The translations under genes were made by a program, and so were the position numbers. Below are positions 4,537-21,654 of a DNA stretch of 34,099 bases, piece by piece. Within the stretch, counting starts at the first letter, position 1; each line of letters starts with the position of its first letter. Below the pieces are notes generated by a model, which worked only from the letters and a program-made list of their open reading frames with translations, made no database searches and was not told the DNA's origin. The stretch covers positions 17,629 through 51,727 of the forward strand of contig CAJOFV010000016.1 of assembly GCA_905233925.1 (NCBI GenBank), given 5' to 3'. The stretch is from Paludibacteraceae bacterium. GTDB taxonomy: Bacteria; Bacteroidota; Bacteroidia; Bacteroidales; Paludibacteraceae.

Positions 4537-4631
4537 ATCTTTACGGACTTTAGAGCCCCAATTGACTTTATAAAACAAACAACAATATTAACCCTTTAAA
4601 AGTGCGCACGATACTTATAGTGTATTTGCTT

Positions 4632-7600
4632 ATGAGAAAAATCATTTTTACAATTCTCCTTACCATCGCAGCAAGTGTAGGAAAACTATTCGCTTATGAT
4701 GCCCAAATCGGTAATTTGTACTACAATCTCAGCACCATTTCCCAAACAGCAACGGTAACTTATAAATCCCTAACCGTATATTATCCTAGTAAATTTGTAT
4801 ATAACGAAAATTGGAATATTACTACTGTCGACATTCCAGCCTCGGTAACCTATGGCGGTACAACCTACACCGTCACTTCGATCGGTAGTAATGCTTTCTC
4901 TGGTTGCACCAGTTTGACCTCTGTTACCATTCCAAACTCCATCACTTCGATTGGGAAGGAAGCTTTCTCTGGTTGCTCTAGTTTGCCTGAGATAGGTAAT
5001 ATCTGTTATGCGGATAAATGGATTGTGGAAGTAACTGATAAAAACTTATCGACTTATACGATTGAAGAAGGGACTCGGGGTATTTGCAATAATGCGTTCG
5101 CTTATTGCAAATACATGACCACAATCACTATTCCCAACTCCGTTACTTCGATTGGCAATGACGCTTTCTATGGTTGCTCTAGTTTGCCCATTGTTGATAA
5201 TATCCGCTATGCAGACACATATTTAGTAAAGCTTGCAGATGAATCGTTATCTACATGTATAATCAAAGAAGGTACAAAATTTATTGGCAATAACGCTTTC
5301 TATGGTTGCACCAGCTTGACCTCTGTTACCATTCCCAACTCCGTAACTTTGATTGGTGAGCAAGCTTTTAATGGATGTACTGGTCTGACTTCTATTGCCA
5401 TTGGTAACTCCGTCACTTCGATTGGTTATATGGCTTTTTATGGTTGCGCCGGTTTGACTTCTGTTACTATTCCTAACTCTGTCACTTCGATTGGTGAGCA
5501 AGCTTTCTATGGTTGCACAAGCTTGACTTCCGTTGCCATTGGTAACTCCGTCACTTTGATTGGTGAGCGAGCTTTTAGAGGGTGTACCGGTTTGGTGTCT
5601 GTCACATTGGATGCAAATGAGATTACTAGCAAAAATTATTCATATGGTGGCGACAATGGTATTTCCAATATTTTTGGAACGCAAGTGCAAGAATATATTT
5701 TGGGAAACTCCATTACTTCAATTGGCAGTTATGCTTTCTCTGCTTGCACCGGTTTGACTTCTGTCACCATTGGTAACTCCGTCACTTCAATTGGCAGTTA
5801 TGCTTTCACGGGTAGCTCTAGCCTAAATTCTATACTATGGAATGCCAATGAATATGAGGTATTAGATTACGATCAAGGAGGAAGTAGTAAAGAGTTTGGT
5901 CCCTTTTATGATATATGTTCTAACATCACTTCCTTTACTATTGGAAATGAAGTTGAATCGCTTCCTGATTATTTATGCTACGGCATGAATAACTTGACGG
6001 ATATCAATTTACCAAATAGTGTGAAGTCTATAGGTGATAAATGTTTTTATGATTGTGTTGGCTTACGTAGAGTGCAATTGAGTAACCAATTAGAGCATAT
6101 TGGAGCATCCGCTTTTGAAAACTGCACACGCCTAAATACTTTGAACTTACCCAATACATTGACATACATAGGAATAGATGCCTTTAAAAACACACCATTC
6201 TATTCTTCTACCGGTGAATGGGAAAATGGTATGCGCTACATTGGTACGGTATTGGTTGAGGTAAATGAAGCAGAACTTCCATATTATGATTGTACTATAA
6301 GAGAAGGAACAACAGCAATTATTGATAGAGCATTTGCATATTGTCATATAGGTTCAATTACCATACCGGAAGGAGTCACGGCTATTCCAAATTATGCTTT
6401 TGAAGGATGTTATTATCTACATACTATTAAAATTCCTAATTCCGTCACTTCGATTGGCAGTGGGGCCTTCTCTGATTGCACTGGTTTGACTTCTGTTACG
6501 ATTCCTAACTTTGTCACTTCGATTGGCAGTGGGGCTTTCTCTGATTGCACTGGTTTGACTTCTGTTACGATTCCTAACTCTGTCACTTCGATTGGCAATT
6601 ATGCTTTTAGGGATTGCACAGGTTTGACTTCTATTACTATTCCTAACTCTGTCACTTCAATTGGTAGTGGGGCTTTCTCTGGTTGCACCGGTTTGACCTC
6701 TATAACCATTCCCAACTCCGTCACTTCGATTGGCGAGAAAGCTTTTAATGGATGTACCGGTTTGACTTCTGTCACCATTGGTAACTCAGTCACTTCAATT
6801 GGTAGTAATGCTTTTGAAGACTGTACAAGCTTACAAGAAGTTCATATTAGCGATATTGCTGCTTGGTGTTCTATTAAATTCAATGATAATCCTTTGTATT
6901 ACACTAAACATTTATATTTGAATGGAAAAGAAATTACTGGAGATTTGGTTATTCCGGAAGGTGTCACTTCAATTGGCAATGGAGCTTTCTACTATTGTGA
7001 CAAATTGACATCTGTTACTATTCCTAACACCGTCATCTCAATAGGAGAAAAAGCATTTTACAGTTGTCACAATTTGACATCACTAACCATTCCGGATTTG
7101 GTGAAGGCAATAGGTAGTGAGGCCTTTTGTAATTGCGGAATAAAATCTATTGTTATCGGAAATTCCGTTTCTAAAATTGGTGAATACGCTTTTAGACGGT
7201 GTTCTTTAACCTCTGTAGTATGGAATGCAAAAAAATGTGATGCCTATCATTATCATTATTCTGAATATATTCCAGAAGCCGGATATGATTGGGAGCATGA
7301 TGAATATGGACCTTTCTACTCATCAAATCATTATATTACATCATTTACATTGGGTAATGAGGTTAGAGAAATTCCCGATGGACTTTGCTATGGGATGTAT
7401 AATTTAACTTCTGTCAACATTCCTAATAATGTTGAGAAAATAGGCAAAATGGCATTCTCCGGTTGCGAAGCCCTTAAACAAATTACTATTGGCCATAATG
7501 TCAAGGAGATAAGCGACAATGCATTTGATGAATGCCCGAATGTAATGACAATCTATTCCTATCTGGAAACGCCGCCTGCAATCAATAATACTGTCTTTGC

Positions 7601-8840
7601 CGGATTTGGTACCTATAAAGGTGTGGATTTGTATGTTCCCATCGGCTGCAAAGCCAATTATGAAGCAATGGATATTTGGAAAGAGTTCTATATTATTGAG
7701 GGCTTGCCAGACATTATTGATAACAATCTCTATTATATGTTGGACGAGGTAAACCAGACGGCAACACTTATCACGTCTTCTCTTGCGGAGTTAAAGCCGG
7801 TTGTAAATGGTGAATTGGTCATTCCGGAAACCGTAGTAAGCAACGGTAAGACCTTTACGGTAACCGCTATCGGCGATAATGTATTCAAAGATAATTCCAC
7901 CATTAGCACGGTTGTTATACCTTCGACCGTCACGCAGATTGGCGATTCGGCTTTCTATGGTTCAAGTTTGACGTCTGTTGTTATCGGTGGAACTAAAAAG
8001 CCTGTAGAATCGGTGGCTGTTCGTCGTAACATAATGGTGGAAGAATGTTACGAAATTGGAGATTATGCCTTTGCTAACTGTAAAGGATTGACAAAGGTAA
8101 AATTCCTTGACTGCGTAAGTTCTATCGGCAAAGGAGCATTCAAAGGTTGCTCCAACCTGAAGGATATCTATTCCAAGATGCAAACCCCGCCCGCTATTGA
8201 TGAGACTGTATTTGCTGATTGTGGCGCTTTGAAAGATATTAACTTGTATGTTCCGACCGGCATGGAATCTACATACAAAGGAATGGCTGTTTGGAAAGAA
8301 TTCTTCTTCAAAGTGTTTGTTAATACTTATATTGTCACTTTCGTAGATTGGAACGGCAATGTAATCAGCACACAAGAAGTTGAAGAAGGAGCATCTGCTA
8401 TTGCTCCTGCCGACCCGGAACGGAATGGCTATCACTTTACAGGATGGGATATTTCCTTTGCCAATGTAACGGCCGATATAATCGTTACTGCCCAATATGC
8501 GGAAATTGTCATGTGGACACTTGTTGCCAAGCCATCCGATGAGTATATGGGGTATGTTACAGGTGGCGGCATCTACGAAGAAGGTGAAGTTGTGACCATT
8601 ACGGCAATCCCGTATGAAGGTTATATCTTCGTTCAATGGTCAGACGGCAACACGGATGCCCAACGGACGGTAACGGTTACTTCCGATGCCACCTATACCG
8701 CTGTATTTGCAGAGCAACCTCAAGCAATTGAGCAAATCGAAATGGGAAATCCGAAAAATGCTAAATTGCTGATAGAAGGGCACCTCTACATCCTTCGCGA
8801 CGGCAAAATATACACCGCTACCGGTGCAGAAATTCGTTAG
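4632..8840 (+). CDS. BspA-like leucine-rich repeat surface protein (TpLRR/LRR_5 repeats, InlB/List-Bact-type repeat near the C-terminus)
   Basis: Signal peptide MRKIIFTILLTIAASVGKLFA; many copies of SVTIPNSVTSIGxxAFxGCTGLT; VTFVDWNGNVISTQEVEEGASAIAPADPERNGYHFTGWD; tail EGHLYILRDGKIYTATGAEIR. Confidence 0.93.
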   Translation: MRKIIFTILLTIAASVGKLFAYDAQIGNLYYNLSTISQTATVTYKSLTVYYPSKFVYNENWNITTVDIPASVTYGGTTYTVTSIGSNAFSGCTSLTSVTIPNSITSIGKEAFSGCSSLPEIGNICYADKWIVEVTDKNLSTYTIEEGTRGICNNAFAYCKYMTTITIPNSVTSIGNDAFYGCSSLPIVDNIRYADTYLVKLADESLSTCIIKEGTKFIGNNAFYGCTSLTSVTIPNSVTLIGEQAFNGCTGLTSIAIGNSVTSIGYMAFYGCAGLTSVTIPNSVTSIGEQAFYGCTSLTSVAIGNSVTLIGERAFRGCTGLVSVTLDANEITSKNYSYGGDNGISNIFGTQVQEYILGNSITSIGSYAFSACTGLTSVTIGNSVTSIGSYAFTGSSSLNSILWNANEYEVLDYDQGGSSKEFGPFYDICSNITSFTIGNEVESLPDYLCYGMNNLTDINLPNSVKSIGDKCFYDCVGLRRVQLSNQLEHIGASAFENCTRLNTLNLPNTLTYIGIDAFKNTPFYSSTGEWENGMRYIGTVLVEVNEAELPYYDCTIREGTTAIIDRAFAYCHIGSITIPEGVTAIPNYAFEGCYYLHTIKIPNSVTSIGSGAFSDCTGLTSVTIPNFVTSIGSGAFSDCTGLTSVTIPNSVTSIGNYAFRDCTGLTSITIPNSVTSIGSGAFSGCTGLTSITIPNSVTSIGEKAFNGCTGLTSVTIGNSVTSIGSNAFEDCTSLQEVHISDIAAWCSIKFNDNPLYYTKHLYLNGKEITGDLVIPEGVTSIGNGAFYYCDKLTSVTIPNTVISIGEKAFYSCHNLTSLTIPDLVKAIGSEAFCNCGIKSIVIGNSVSKIGEYAFRRCSLTSVVWNAKKCDAYHYHYSEYIPEAGYDWEHDEYGPFYSSNHYITSFTLGNEVREIPDGLCYGMYNLTSVNIPNNVEKIGKMAFSGCEALKQITIGHNVKEISDNAFDECPNVMTIYSYLETPPAINNTVFAGFGTYKGVDLYVPIGCKANYEAMDIWKEFYIIEGLPDIIDNNLYYMLDEVNQTATLITSSLAELKPVVNGELVIPETVVSNGKTFTVTAIGDNVFKDNSTISTVVIPSTVTQIGDSAFYGSSLTSVVIGGTKKPVESVAVRRNIMVEECYEIGDYAFANCKGLTKVKFLDCVSSIGKGAFKGCSNLKDIYSKMQTPPAIDETVFADCGALKDINLYVPTGMESTYKGMAVWKEFFFKVFVNTYIVTFVDWNGNVISTQEVEEGASAIAPADPERNGYHFTGWDISFANVTADIIVTAQYAEIVMWTLVAKPSDEYMGYVTGGGIYEEGEVVTITAIPYEGYIFVQWSDGNTDAQRTVTVTSDATYTAVFAEQPQAIEQIEMGNPKNAKLLIEGHLYILRDGKIYTATGAEIR

Positions 8841-10292: not shown

Positions 10293-11054
10293 ATGATACA
10301 AGTCAAGAATATAGTAAAGAGCTTTGAGGGCGTGACGGTGCTGAAAGATATCAGCGCGGACTTCCACGACGGCGAGGTGAACATGATTATCGGTCAGTCC
10401 GGCTCGGGCAAAACAGTGCTGATGAAGACCATGCTCGGGCTGTTCCGTCCGGACAGCGGAGCTATATTGTTGGATAGCCACGCAGATCTCACGAAGTTCA
10501 AAGAAAGGGAAATGCGGGCATATCACCGCAAAGTGGGAACATTGTTTCAGGGCTCGGCACTATTCGATTCGATGACGGTGATGCAGAATGTGCTGTTCCC
10601 GTTGGAGATGTTCTCCCGCATGAGCGACGCGGAAATGCGCGAACGGGCGATTTTCTGCCTCAAACGCGTGAACATGCCGGAACATACCTACGACTTGATG
10701 CCCAGCGAAATCAGCGGCGGACAGCAGAAACGTGTGGCAATTGCGCGCGCCATTGTGCTGAATCCGAGGTATCTGTTCTGCGACGAACCGAACTCCGGAC
10801 TGGACCCGAAAACCAGTCTGGTCATCGACCAACTGATTCAAGATATCACCCGCGAATACAATATCTGCACGATTGTGAACTCGCACGACATGAACTCCAT
10901 CATGGAAATCGGAGACAATATTCTGTTCCTGAAGAACGGTCTGCTTGAATGGCAGGGCTCACGGCACGATATTTGTAACAGCGATAATGAAGCACTCAAC
11001 GATTTTGTATTTGCGAGCGAGTTATTCAAGAAAATCAAAGCAACGAATATATGA
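10293..11054 (+). CDS. mlaF: MlaF-family ABC transporter ATPase
   Basis: IIGQSGSGKTVLMKTMLGL Walker A, SGGQQKRVAIARAI signature, YLFCDEPNSGLDP Walker B; adjacent to mlaE. Confidence 0.93.
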   Translation: MIQVKNIVKSFEGVTVLKDISADFHDGEVNMIIGQSGSGKTVLMKTMLGLFRPDSGAILLDSHADLTKFKEREMRAYHRKVGTLFQGSALFDSMTVMQNVLFPLEMFSRMSDAEMRERAIFCLKRVNMPEHTYDLMPSEISGGQQKRVAIARAIVLNPRYLFCDEPNSGLDPKTSLVIDQLIQDITREYNICTIVNSHDMNSIMEIGDNILFLKNGLLEWQGSRHDICNSDNEALNDFVFASELFKKIKATNI

Positions 11055-16900: not shown

Positions 16901-17506
16901 ATGACTTTTGTAGAAACAGCAAATCAGATTTTTGCACAGGCGGTCAAAGACTACCACAAAACAGATAATGTGGATGCTCCCATTATCAATCCTTACCAAT
17001 CAGGCACTATTGAAGCCGATTTGTATCTCAAGAACTGGATTGATGTCGTGCAATGGCATCTCGAAGATATTATTCGTGACCCGCAGATTGATCCGGTAGA
17101 AGCGTTGGCGTTGAAACGCAGGATTGACCATAGTAATCAGGAGCGCACAGATCTTGTAGAGCGCATCGACTCTTACTTCTGGGAGCAGTTTCACCATGTG
17201 CAACCGAAAGCAGGATCCCGTATTAACACGGAAAGTCCCGCTTGGGCAATTGACCGTCTCAGTATTCTGCACGTCAAACTATGGCATATGCAGGAGCAAG
17301 TAGACCGCAAAGATGTCAGCATGGAGCAACATGAGAAGTGTGTCGCCAAAATGGCAGTACTCAAAGAGCAACTGTCCGACATGACGACTTCCATCAGCCA
17401 ACTCCTTGCAGACTATGCCGATGGCACTCGTATCATGAAGGTCTATCGCCAGATGAAAATGTACAATGATCCGAGTCTCAATCCGGTACTCTACGGCAAG
17501 AAGTAA
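16901..17506 (+). CDS. DUF4254 family protein
   Basis: NPYQSGTIEADLYLKNWIDVVQWHLEDIIRDPQIDPVEALALKRRIDHSNQERTDLVERIDSYF. Confidence 0.8.
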   Translation: MTFVETANQIFAQAVKDYHKTDNVDAPIINPYQSGTIEADLYLKNWIDVVQWHLEDIIRDPQIDPVEALALKRRIDHSNQERTDLVERIDSYFWEQFHHVQPKAGSRINTESPAWAIDRLSILHVKLWHMQEQVDRKDVSMEQHEKCVAKMAVLKEQLSDMTTSISQLLADYADGTRIMKVYRQMKMYNDPSLNPVLYGKK

Positions 17507-17935
17507 GTGAAGCGCGTGCTTGTCATACGGTTTTCGGCATTAGGCGATGTGGCTATGCTGGCAGCGGTACTCAACGGTATTGCCTTGACTTCGGACACAG
17601 AAATAGCCGTGCTCTCACGACAGCAAATGGCTCCGTTGTTTACCGGTGTCCGGTTCTATGGAGCAAATCTCAAAGGCCGCCACAAAGGTATTAAAGGATT
17701 GAATATGCTCCTGCAAGACATTGATTACAAGCAGTTCGATGCCGTCATTGACTGCCACAATGTGCTTCGGAGCCGCTATCTTGACATGCGTTTCCGTTTG
17801 GCAGGTAAACGCGTCACTATAATGACCAAAGCCCGCTTTGCAAAATGGTGGTTGACATGCCGGTGGAACAAGCACAAAAAAGCACTCGTCCCGATGCCGG
17901 ATCGTTACCGCCAGACTATTGTTAAAACATTATAA
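17507..17935 (+). CDS. N-terminal domain of a GT9 (heptosyltransferase-like) glycosyltransferase, stand-alone ORF
   Basis: MKRVLVIRFSALGDVAMLAAVLNGIA...VRFYGANLKGRHKGIKGLNMLL...FDAVIDCHNVLRSRYLDMRFRLAGKRV; stops at the expected inter-domain linker. Confidence 0.85.
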   Translation: MKRVLVIRFSALGDVAMLAAVLNGIALTSDTEIAVLSRQQMAPLFTGVRFYGANLKGRHKGIKGLNMLLQDIDYKQFDAVIDCHNVLRSRYLDMRFRLAGKRVTIMTKARFAKWWLTCRWNKHKKALVPMPDRYRQTIVKTL

Positions 17936-17947
17936 ATTATACAACAC

Positions 17948-19237
17948 ATGAAAGTTCTAAAATTCGGAGGCACCAGTGTCGGTTCGGCCGCCCGTATGAA
18001 AGCAGTGGCAGAATTAGTGGCAGACGGTGAACAGAAAATAATTGTTTTGTCCGCTATGTCCGGCACTACGAACCAGTTGTTACAGATGGCTGAATATATC
18101 CGTGTCGGCAACGCCAGCGGTGCAACAGATACAATGAATATATTGGAAAAGAAGTACCGCGCCGAGTGCGAAGGGCTCGGGATAGACTATGCCGTTCTTA
18201 AGCCGTTCTTCAGCACGTTGCGTCGCCGATGCTTACAGCCGTTTACGCCACAGGTAGAAAAAGACATCGTCAGTTACGGAGAACTGATTTCCACCACCAT
18301 GATGACCACCTACATGGTGCAGCAGGGGCTTGACGCAGCATTAATGCCGGCTTTGGACTACATGCGTCTCAACAACGACGGAGAGCCTGATATGCTTCTG
18401 ACCGAACGTCTATTGCGCGAGCAATTGGCACAAACAGGCGAACATCTTTACATCATCACACAAGGGTTCATTTGCCGCAACACGGAAGGACAGATTGATA
18501 ATCTCCGCCGAGGCGGCAGTGATTATACCGCCTCCATTGTCGGCGCGATTTTGGAAGTGGACGAAATACAGATTTGGACGGACATTGACGGTATTCACAA
18601 CAATGACCCGCGTTATGTGGAAGGCACAAAACCTTTGCGGAACCTCAGTTTCGACGAGGCGGCGGAGTTGGCGTATTTCGGAGCGAAGATTCTGCACCCG
18701 ACTTGTATTTTGCCTGCAAAAATGCACAACGTTCCTGTCCGCCTGCTCAATACAATGGAGCCTTCCGCGCCGGGCACATATATTGACAACCACACATCTT
18801 CCGGTACCATTAAAGCCGTGGCCGCCAAAGATGGTATCTACGCCGTACGTGTACAGTCTGACCGGATGTTGATGGCATACGGTTTCCTGAGCCGCGTATT
18901 CAAAGTCTTTGAGCAATACCGCACCGCTATTGACCTTATTACCACGTCCGAGGTGGCAGTCTCAATGTCTGTGGATAACGACAGCCATTTGAAGGAGATT
19001 TTGGCGGAACTGCGCACGCTGGGCACAGTATCGGTGGAGGGCAATATGAGCATTATCTCTGTCGTCGGTGATTTGCGCCCGAACAATCAAGGTTTGGAAT
19101 CGCTTGTCATTACGGCTCTCAAGGATATTCCTATTCGTATGATTAGTTATGGCGGATCTGACCATAATATCTCCCTGTTGGTATCTTCGGATAACAAAGT
19201 GAAAGCACTTCAGGCATTAAGCCGTTGTCTCTTCTAA
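17948..19237 (+). CDS. lysC: aspartate kinase
   Basis: MKVLKFGGTSVGSAARM, IIVLSAMSGTTNQL, RGGSDYTASIVGAIL, WTDIDGIHNNDPR, ACT region. Confidence 0.95.
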   Translation: MKVLKFGGTSVGSAARMKAVAELVADGEQKIIVLSAMSGTTNQLLQMAEYIRVGNASGATDTMNILEKKYRAECEGLGIDYAVLKPFFSTLRRRCLQPFTPQVEKDIVSYGELISTTMMTTYMVQQGLDAALMPALDYMRLNNDGEPDMLLTERLLREQLAQTGEHLYIITQGFICRNTEGQIDNLRRGGSDYTASIVGAILEVDEIQIWTDIDGIHNNDPRYVEGTKPLRNLSFDEAAELAYFGAKILHPTCILPAKMHNVPVRLLNTMEPSAPGTYIDNHTSSGTIKAVAAKDGIYAVRVQSDRMLMAYGFLSRVFKVFEQYRTAIDLITTSEVAVSMSVDNDSHLKEILAELRTLGTVSVEGNMSIISVVGDLRPNNQGLESLVITALKDIPIRMISYGGSDHNISLLVSSDNKVKALQALSRCLF

Positions 19238-19251
19238 AACTTGTATGCCCT

Positions 19252-20445
19252 ATGATGGTTGGTCAATTTCCGGTAAAACAGTTAAGCCAGTTTGCTACTC
19301 CGTATTACTATTACGACATGGATGTGCTGCGCGAAACGCTGCAAGTCATGCGTAGTGAATCGCAAGATTCTAATTGGCATGTGCACTATGCCATAAAGGC
19401 CTGTGCTACTGATGCCATACTTAAAACGATTGCGGCGAGCGGCGTGGGCGCAGATTGTGTAAGCGGAGGAGAAGTCCGTGCGGCTATTAATGCCGGTTTT
19501 CCGGCAGACAAGATTGTGTTTGCCGGTGTCGCAAAAATGGACAGCGAAATACAGTACGCACTGGAACAAGGCATATTGTGTTTTAATGTCGAGTCCACGG
19601 AAGAACTGGCAGTTATAAGCCAGTTGGCTGGCAATATGGGGACTCGCGCACGCGTATGCCTGCGTGTGAACCCGAATGTGGATGCACATACGCACGCAAA
19701 AATAACAACCGGATTAAGTGAAAACAAGTTCGGTATTCCTTTGCGTTTTCTGGCAGATGCCGTGCGTCTGTGCTACCGTCTGCCTAATGTTGTTTTTCTC
19801 GGGCTGCATTTTCATATTGGCTCACAGATTACCGATATGCAGCCTTTTGAGCAACTTGCTCAAAAAATCAACCAATTAGTCACTGATGTTGAGCAGCTGA
19901 CGTGCATAGACGAGTTCGGCAACAACGTACAGGCAGTTGTTACACACATCAACGTCGGCGGAGGATTGGGAATCTTGTACGAACATCCCAACCACTTCCC
20001 TATTCCGAATTTTAAGGCGTATTTTGCCACGTGGCGCAACGGTATTTCGCTGCGTCCTAATCAGCACCTGCACTTCGAACTCGGGCGTTCCATCGTCGCA
20101 CAGTGTGGCAACCTGATAACCCGTGTGCTGTATGTCAAGCACGGCGAAAACAAGCAGTTCGCCATTGTGGATGCCGGTATGACAGACCTTATCCGTCCTG
20201 CTTTATATGGTGCTTTCCACCGCGTAGAGAACCTCACGCACCCGGATGACGAAGAGCAGTTGTACGATATCGTCGGCCCAATTTGCGAATCAAGCGATGT
20301 CTTTGTGCAGGGCTATAAAATTGCGGCAGTACAGCGAGGCGATATCCTGGCCATGCGTAGCGCCGGTGCTTACGGCGAGATAATGGCGTCACAATATAAT
20401 CTCCGACGCCTGCCCGGACATGTAATTTCTGATGACGTTCAATAA
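19252..20445 (+). CDS. lysA: diaminopimelate decarboxylase
   Basis: ATPYYYYDMDVLRETL, HYAIKACATDAIL, GVGADCVSGGEVRAAI, GLHFHIGSQI, INVGGGLGILYE, GPICESSDVF, SAGAYGEIMASQYN. Confidence 0.95.
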   Translation: MMVGQFPVKQLSQFATPYYYYDMDVLRETLQVMRSESQDSNWHVHYAIKACATDAILKTIAASGVGADCVSGGEVRAAINAGFPADKIVFAGVAKMDSEIQYALEQGILCFNVESTEELAVISQLAGNMGTRARVCLRVNPNVDAHTHAKITTGLSENKFGIPLRFLADAVRLCYRLPNVVFLGLHFHIGSQITDMQPFEQLAQKINQLVTDVEQLTCIDEFGNNVQAVVTHINVGGGLGILYEHPNHFPIPNFKAYFATWRNGISLRPNQHLHFELGRSIVAQCGNLITRVLYVKHGENKQFAIVDAGMTDLIRPALYGAFHRVENLTHPDDEEQLYDIVGPICESSDVFVQGYKIAAVQRGDILAMRSAGAYGEIMASQYNLRRLPGHVISDDVQ

Positions 20446-20942
20446 TGCCCCAACACAAGAGCAACATAGGAATAGCACCGTTTGCCGCACACAAGGGCAA
20501 AATCTACCCACTTGAAAAAATGGAGCAGGTTGTTGCCGCCTTGAGCAAATCCGGCGAGAAAATTTACCTCTTCGGCGGGGGAGAAGAAGAAGTCTCCATC
20601 TTGGAATCATGGGCTGCAAAATATCCGAATACCGAATGTGTGGCGGGCAAAATGTCTATGTCTGAAGAGCTGGAACTGATTCGCTCGCTCCGCGTTATGA
20701 TAACGATGGATTCCAGCAACATGCACCTTGCCTCTTTGGTCGGCACACGCGTTGTCAGCGTCTGGGGAGCCACCCACCCGATGGCAGGATTTCTGGGCGT
20801 CGGGCAAAAGGAAGAAGACTGTATTCAGCGAAACTTACCTTGCCGGCCTTGTAGCATTTATGGCAATAAGCCCTGCCGGTTCGGTGATTATCGCTGCCTG
20901 AATATTGACCCGCAAACAATAATCGAACGTGTTGGTCGTTAA
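20445..20942 (+). CDS. C-terminal (donor-binding) domain of the same GT9 glycosyltransferase, stand-alone ORF
   Basis: IGIAPFAAHKGKIYPLEKMEQVV, IYLFGGGEEEVSILESWAAKYPN, MITMDSSNMHLASLVGTRVVSVWGATHP, LPCRPCSIYGNKPCRFGDYRCL. Confidence 0.88.
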   Translation: MPQHKSNIGIAPFAAHKGKIYPLEKMEQVVAALSKSGEKIYLFGGGEEEVSILESWAAKYPNTECVAGKMSMSEELELIRSLRVMITMDSSNMHLASLVGTRVVSVWGATHPMAGFLGVGQKEEDCIQRNLPCRPCSIYGNKPCRFGDYRCLNIDPQTIIERVGR

Positions 20943-21654
20943 TCCTAAATATGAGCACTTGCGCAGTTGGCTGGAACAACTGCCACATATTTTTTCCCGT
21001 CAAGGCGAAATTATTTACGACGCTCGTAATCAAATCCGTCTGATTGATACGGAATTACCTGGCGGCATCAAACTATGCGTCAAGCGCTTTCATCGTCCGG
21101 CTCTTGGGAACAGACTCGCCTATGCATATTTCCGCCAGCCGAAAGCCAAACGCGCTTATGAGAATGCCCGCCGTTTGGAAGAATGCGGTATCGGCACTCC
21201 CACCCCCGTAGCCTACCTTTTGCAGGAGAACCGTTTGGGCTGGCTTGGCGAATCATATCTTGTAACGGAAGTCAGTCCGCTCAAGCGAAACTTCTATGAG
21301 TTCCGTGCACATGGGACTGAGGGCTACGAGCACATTATCCGCCAGTTTGCGCAGTTTACGGCAAACATGCACAGCAAGAACATCCTTCACAAGGATTATT
21401 CGCCGGGAAATATTCTCTTCGACCTTGACGAAAAAGGAAATGCCCGCTTTGAGTTGGTGGATATCAACAGAATGCGTTTCGGCAAACCGGTCGGCTTGCG
21501 TGCTGCCTGCCGCAACTTCTGCCGCTTGTGGGGAAAAGAAGATTTCTTTGTGTTGCTGGCCGAAACATACGCAGAAGCACGGGGATTTGATAAGGCACAA
21601 TGCCGTCGCTTGACCATCAAGTATTGGCGGCGTTTTTGGAGATTTCGCAAATAG
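20929..21654 (+). CDS. lipopolysaccharide kinase (InaA/WaaP-like)
   Basis: LCVKRFHRP, YLVTEVSPL, HSKNILHKDYSPGNILFDLDEKGNARFELVDINRM. Confidence 0.82.
   Translation: MLVVNPKYEHLRSWLEQLPHIFSRQGEIIYDARNQIRLIDTELPGGIKLCVKRFHRPALGNRLAYAYFRQPKAKRAYENARRLEECGIGTPTPVAYLLQENRLGWLGESYLVTEVSPLKRNFYEFRAHGTEGYEHIIRQFAQFTANMHSKNILHKDYSPGNILFDLDEKGNARFELVDINRMRFGKPVGLRAACRNFCRLWGKEDFFVLLAETYAEARGFDKAQCRRLTIKYWRRFWRFRK

Follow-up and report, generated by a model that had tools for sequence, protein, structure and literature searches.

A lysC–lysA cassette lodged between the two domains of a GT9 glycosyltransferase gene in a gut Bacteroidales bacterium, with a probable two-chain enzyme as its outcome

What becomes of a GT-B glycosyltransferase when other genes come to lie between its two domains? 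The question is raised by a locus in the genome of a gut Bacteroidales bacterium (Paludibacteraceae, contig CAJOFV010000016.1), where lysC and lysA are lodged inside a GT9 gene, exactly between its two domains. The initial annotation of the 34,099-nucleotide stretch that we analysed (hereafter, the window) described a GT9 gene split at its inter-domain linker with lysC–lysA between the halves, and this description is borne out by the coordinates, the Pfam and NCBIfam matches and the alignment to intact orthologs. The locus is composed as follows; G175 and G173 are two genomes of the same genus, discussed below.

16901..17506, plus strand: DUF4254 gene (Pfam DUF4254, E 2.7e-57), the conserved upstream neighbour of GT9 in relatives
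17507..17935, plus strand: N-terminal (acceptor-side) GT9 domain, 142 aa, aligned to intact orthologs; 79% identical to G175, 69% to G173
17936..17947, plus strand: 12-nt spacer from the N-half stop to lysC, read from the sequence
17948..19237, plus strand: lysC, aspartate kinase, full length (PRK09084, E 2e-111, residues 1–429)
19252..20445, plus strand: lysA, diaminopimelate decarboxylase, full length (TIGR01048, 413.5 bits; cut-off 297.9)
20401..20439, plus strand: 3' end of lysA, encoding LRRLPGHVISDDV, matching the GT9 linker of G175 (28/39 nt identical, from L146:8256 onward)
20445..20942, plus strand: C-terminal (donor-side) GT9 domain, 165 aa (PF01075, E 3.9e-20); 88% identical to G175, 77% to G173
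20929..21654, plus strand: LPS-kinase-like gene (Kdo/WaaP; PF06293, E 3.1e-13), by synteny the usual downstream neighbour

The joints are as tight as had been claimed, with 12 nt before lysC and the ATG of the C-half overlapping the lysA stop (TAATG); the N-half starts with a GTG that abuts the DUF4254 stop (TAAGTG). Both lysine genes, previously called complete, are full length by Pfam and NCBIfam, the likely lysA start (ATG at 19252) being picked by homology, while the mechanical ORF begins at TTG 19225. The N-half and C-half are two ORFs 2.5 kb apart, and no single chain carries both domains, unlike in G175 and other relatives. Scans for promoters and terminators gave counts close to chance expectation. 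Translation of the N-half would follow that of DUF4254, and translation of the C-half that of lysA, the latter probably through reinitiation where the codons overlap. The lysine-synthesis genes sit inside an LPS operon.

Each half contains one domain. The C-half matches Glyco_transf_9 (PF01075) with 72.7 bits (cut-off 22), over profile positions 104–237 of 247 only, and the match of the N-half, a weak one, is to heptosyltransferase I over positions 1–104 of 320 only. PF01075 does not match the N-half, which nonetheless aligns with intact orthologs and keeps FSALGDVAM, the GD motif of the N-terminal Rossmann domain. In this alignment the N-half ends with the last helix of domain 1 (..MPDRYRQTIVKTL), the C-half begins 7 aa ahead of the IGIAPFAAH motif, and the gap relative to intact orthologs comprises the variable linker only. 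The earlier reading of an N-terminal-only and a C-terminal-only half is confirmed by these partial profile matches and the alignment. That the linker alone is absent also holds, but its proposed length of about 40 aa is the upper end of the range in orthologs (~10–45 aa) rather than a typical value. Of 52 positions that are invariant or nearly so across 47 intact proteins, 51 are kept in the window halves, in agreement with the claim that both retain their conserved motifs; the halves of G173 likewise keep 51 of 52. The structure of the N-half alone was predicted as a complete domain (pLDDT 92.4, pTM 0.85).

In relatives, the same gene is one frame of ~310–400 codons that follows DUF4254 and usually precedes the LPS-kinase-like gene. 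All 20 regions of the initial set have the DUF4254–GT9 order, and the kinase gene follows in most of those from the same genus; this synteny upholds the ancestral DUF4254–GT9–kinase order suggested earlier. At a threshold of E ≤ 1e-50, an ortholog is present in 78 of 178 same-genus genomes, all compared genomes being drafts, and among these carriers the C-domain stands alone in a short frame only in the window genome and in G173. In a second collection, a split was found in none of 59 loci with a whole C-domain, and an order-wide sample of 394 genomes gave no further clean case. Three GT9 relatives in unusually short frames in the latter sample (G398:C41:27354-27728, G465:C49:16442-16918 and G535:C126:7287-7763; 135, 252 and 278 aa) may be broken, truncated or split genes. 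Since distant relatives match the two halves unequally, an origin from different ancestral proteins was considered; it was rejected, as the best full-length match of both halves is the same G175 protein (79% for the N-half, 88% for the C-half).

G175 is the closest relative of the window genome, and its GT9 gene is one complete ORF of 317 aa. The linker of this protein, LQRLSGHVIPDEV, matches the conserved LysA C-terminus LRRLPGHVISDDV: the G175 linker reads LQRLSGHVIPDEVIRQQEKKN, and LRRLPGHVISDD is the C-terminus of window LysA. The identity is 9 of 13 aa and 28 of 39 nt, in the reading frame of lysA itself. The protein score of the match is 46, compared with a maximum of 25 in 83 other GT9 linkers, and one in 20,000 shuffles scored as high; the DNA score is 33 versus 22 among 91 linkers. 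In the next relative, G178, GT9 is intact and the linker is unrelated. The simplest reading is that the G175 linker is a lysA scar, i.e., that an ancestor shared by the window and G175 lineages carried the cassette, which was then deleted in G175, where the lysA end would remain as the linker. The reverse origin, with the lysA tail taken from a GT9 linker, was rejected because the LRRLPGH core is native to most LysA C-termini across the genus. Structure prediction gave the single-chain G175 protein a pLDDT of 95 and the GT9 fold, the scar being the sole weakly predicted stretch; structurally, the prediction is matched best by GT9 heptosyltransferases. It should be noted that the contig of G175 (L146 = L084) has frameshift-like breaks at 282–1098 and 10331–10989, in genes for an ABC-transporter ATPase and a glycosyltransferase; these may be either sequencing errors or real lesions, and the exact in-frame joint of the G175 GT9 gene could therefore itself be a sequencing error.

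In G173, the GT9 gene also consists of two ORFs, of 143 and 165 aa (142 and 165 in the window), which end and start at positions equivalent to those of the window halves. They are 25 nt apart, and neither lysC nor lysA was found in this genome, which is 95% complete. A single sequencing error was rejected as the source of this split, the gap having stops in all three frames. The gap contains TCACAACATAAT, close to TCACAATATAAT of lysA, a match that is only tied third among 91 linkers (shuffle p 0.016). Read in the frame of the N-half, the gap (L083, about 2325–2370) gives SQHNL, comparable to SQYNL in the LysA tail, which is suggestive only and possibly a second lysA remnant. A separate similarity between the two genomes lies upstream of the GT9 locus, where a single large ORF of 1412 codons (window 4602–8840) matches in parts the region of a neighbouring G173 gene in several registers, in the manner of a repeat protein.

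The G175 and G173 loci bear directly on the reality of the split. The window genome (G000) is a 126-contig draft, 77% complete, in which lysC–lysA might have been wrongly joined into the GT9 gene. Misassembly was rejected, and we find it scarcely credible, because the same position in G175, a separate assembly, is occupied by sequence derived from lysA; in addition, the G173 gene is in two ORFs and the window joints are gene-exact. The G175 scar, together with the two ORFs of G173, shows that the split is not recent and did not arise in assembly.

The tree of the flanking genes has the topology ((G000,G175)100,G173)77, within a clade with G178 at 100. A gyrA tree built with FastTree likewise sets G000, G175 and G173 apart from G178 (support 0.96 for protein, 1.00 for DNA), while the pairing of G000 with G175 has a support of 0.57 (protein) and 0.95 (DNA), and of 1.00 in the concatenation. 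As the three species form one clade in both gyrA and the flanking genes, the split predates at least one speciation and probably two. From these sequence comparisons, it is likely that the gene was split once, in an ancestor shared by G000, G175 and G173. A different history has the gene of G173 split on its own and the lysCA insertion common to the window and G175 lineages only, so that a two-chain enzyme arose twice. The absence of a clear lysA remnant in G173, where the match of the gap ranks as given above, speaks for this history, but the three species are one clade, their halves end and start at equivalent points and one split is simpler; we regard two independent events as unlikely. It should be emphasised that this alternative is about history, not function, and is compatible with a two-chain enzyme in the window. 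The lysCA insertion may itself have made the split or may have entered an existing one.

The cassette itself has a patchy distribution in the genus. Orthologs of lysC occur in 26 and of lysA in 39 of 178 same-genus genomes, adjacent to each other in most genomes that hold both, and window lysC and lysA nest within the genus in both trees. Their sites are several and unrelated (for instance downstream of a lepA-like or a protease-like gene, or within a polysaccharide-type locus, the neighbours being named from sequence). The pair (window 17948–20445; L086, L087, L206–L223) thus behaves as a portable one. No end motif shared between these sites was found, and no transposase or end motifs were recognised next to the cassette. 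Most genomes of the genus are without a lysA match, which would suggest lysine auxotrophy.

Are the separated halves still under selection? A codon model with four species gave dN/dS values of 0.12 (N-half) and 0.02 (C-half) on the window branch, each of which differs from 1 (likelihood ratio 10.5 and 10.9), and of 0.13 and 0.04 on the G173 branch (9.0 and 10.2); near-saturation of synonymous sites makes these values rough. Provided that our reading of the G175 scar is right, the window branch lies wholly after the split. For the short ancestral branch the model gave a high dN/dS, which we disregarded as a boundary estimate. The values are well below 1 for each half, i.e., they indicate purifying selection.

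A gene found split in a draft genome is often a pseudogene, and the split may have inactivated this one, leaving halves that are by chance still open. Many genomes of the genus have no ortholog at the threshold used, which would fit such a loss; about half of the same-genus genomes lack a close one, so the enzyme is dispensable over longer times. Nevertheless, the halves are open, bounded at domain borders and keep nearly all near-invariant residues; dN/dS is well below 1 in two species, there are no signs of relaxed selection or broken frames, and the rejoined G175 gene is complete as well. Inactivation is therefore improbable. Still more improbable is that only one half is functional and the other is a passenger, the C-half acting for instance in nucleotide-sugar binding: the C-half does evolve more slowly than the N-half, but both are constrained and the rejoined G175 form retains both.

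The only other GT9 gene in the window genome lies on contig C38; its C-domain is 45% identical and it falls into a separate group, and no second ortholog of the split gene was found in that genome. The C38 group is common in the genus, and several genomes carry a C38-type gene besides an ortholog of the split one, so the C38 gene is not a missing intact copy. The initial annotation had offered two options, a functional two-subunit GT-B enzyme made when a cassette landed in the linker or a recently inactivated gene; the scar, the G173 form, the purifying selection and the lack of a second ortholog favour the former.

Taken together, our results make it probable that, with lysC–lysA in the linker of an LPS-type GT9 gene, a single operon now encodes the GT-B enzyme in the form of two chains. 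These chains would reassemble across the GT-B cleft, and the reassembled enzyme would still act as a sugar transferase, with the lipopolysaccharide core as its probable acceptor. We also lean, with less assurance, towards the fuller account in which the enzyme went on working in two chains after the lysine cassette landed in the linker and was re-stitched in a sister species through a linker made from the lysA tail. Changes from single-chain to multi-chain enzymes, and the reverse, are usually inferred from ancient events. If the account is true, the splitting and repair of a gene are visible side by side, one genus holding the gene in intact form, in two pieces, in two pieces with a cassette, and rejoined with a piece of the cassette. 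The steps then become testable, namely the tolerance of a GT-B enzyme to losing its covalent linker and its restoration by a lysA-derived one.

Among known systems, the GT9 heptosyltransferases WaaC, WaaF and relatives (PDB 2gt1, 2h1h, 1psw, 3tov) share with the window protein the fold, the family and the motif residues of both domains; they are single chains, whereas the window domains are encoded apart. Our literature search found no paper on a split GT9. Split GT-B glycosyltransferases are represented by Alg14/Alg13 in eukaryotes and EpsE/EpsF in bacteria and archaea, for which splitting and repeated re-fusion have been described (PMC8993221, PMC4973528). As in these pairs, the gene layout of the window and G173 gives separate N-domain and C-domain chains, and by analogy with them the GT9 halves would associate and catalyse as two chains. 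The pairs are, however, MurG/GT1/GT28-related with an ancient split, whereas the window gene is a GT9 split within one small clade, with a cassette in between. Pfam listed no Alg14 or GT28_C match on either half, and the C-half is GT9. The window enzyme is thus like Alg14/Alg13 and EpsE/EpsF in design and not a member of their family. In prokaryotic gene fission and fusion in general (for example PMC11237513), one gene is turned into two at a domain boundary, as here; what the window clade shows in addition is the intervening cassette and what we read as its remnant in a sister species that has the gene rejoined.
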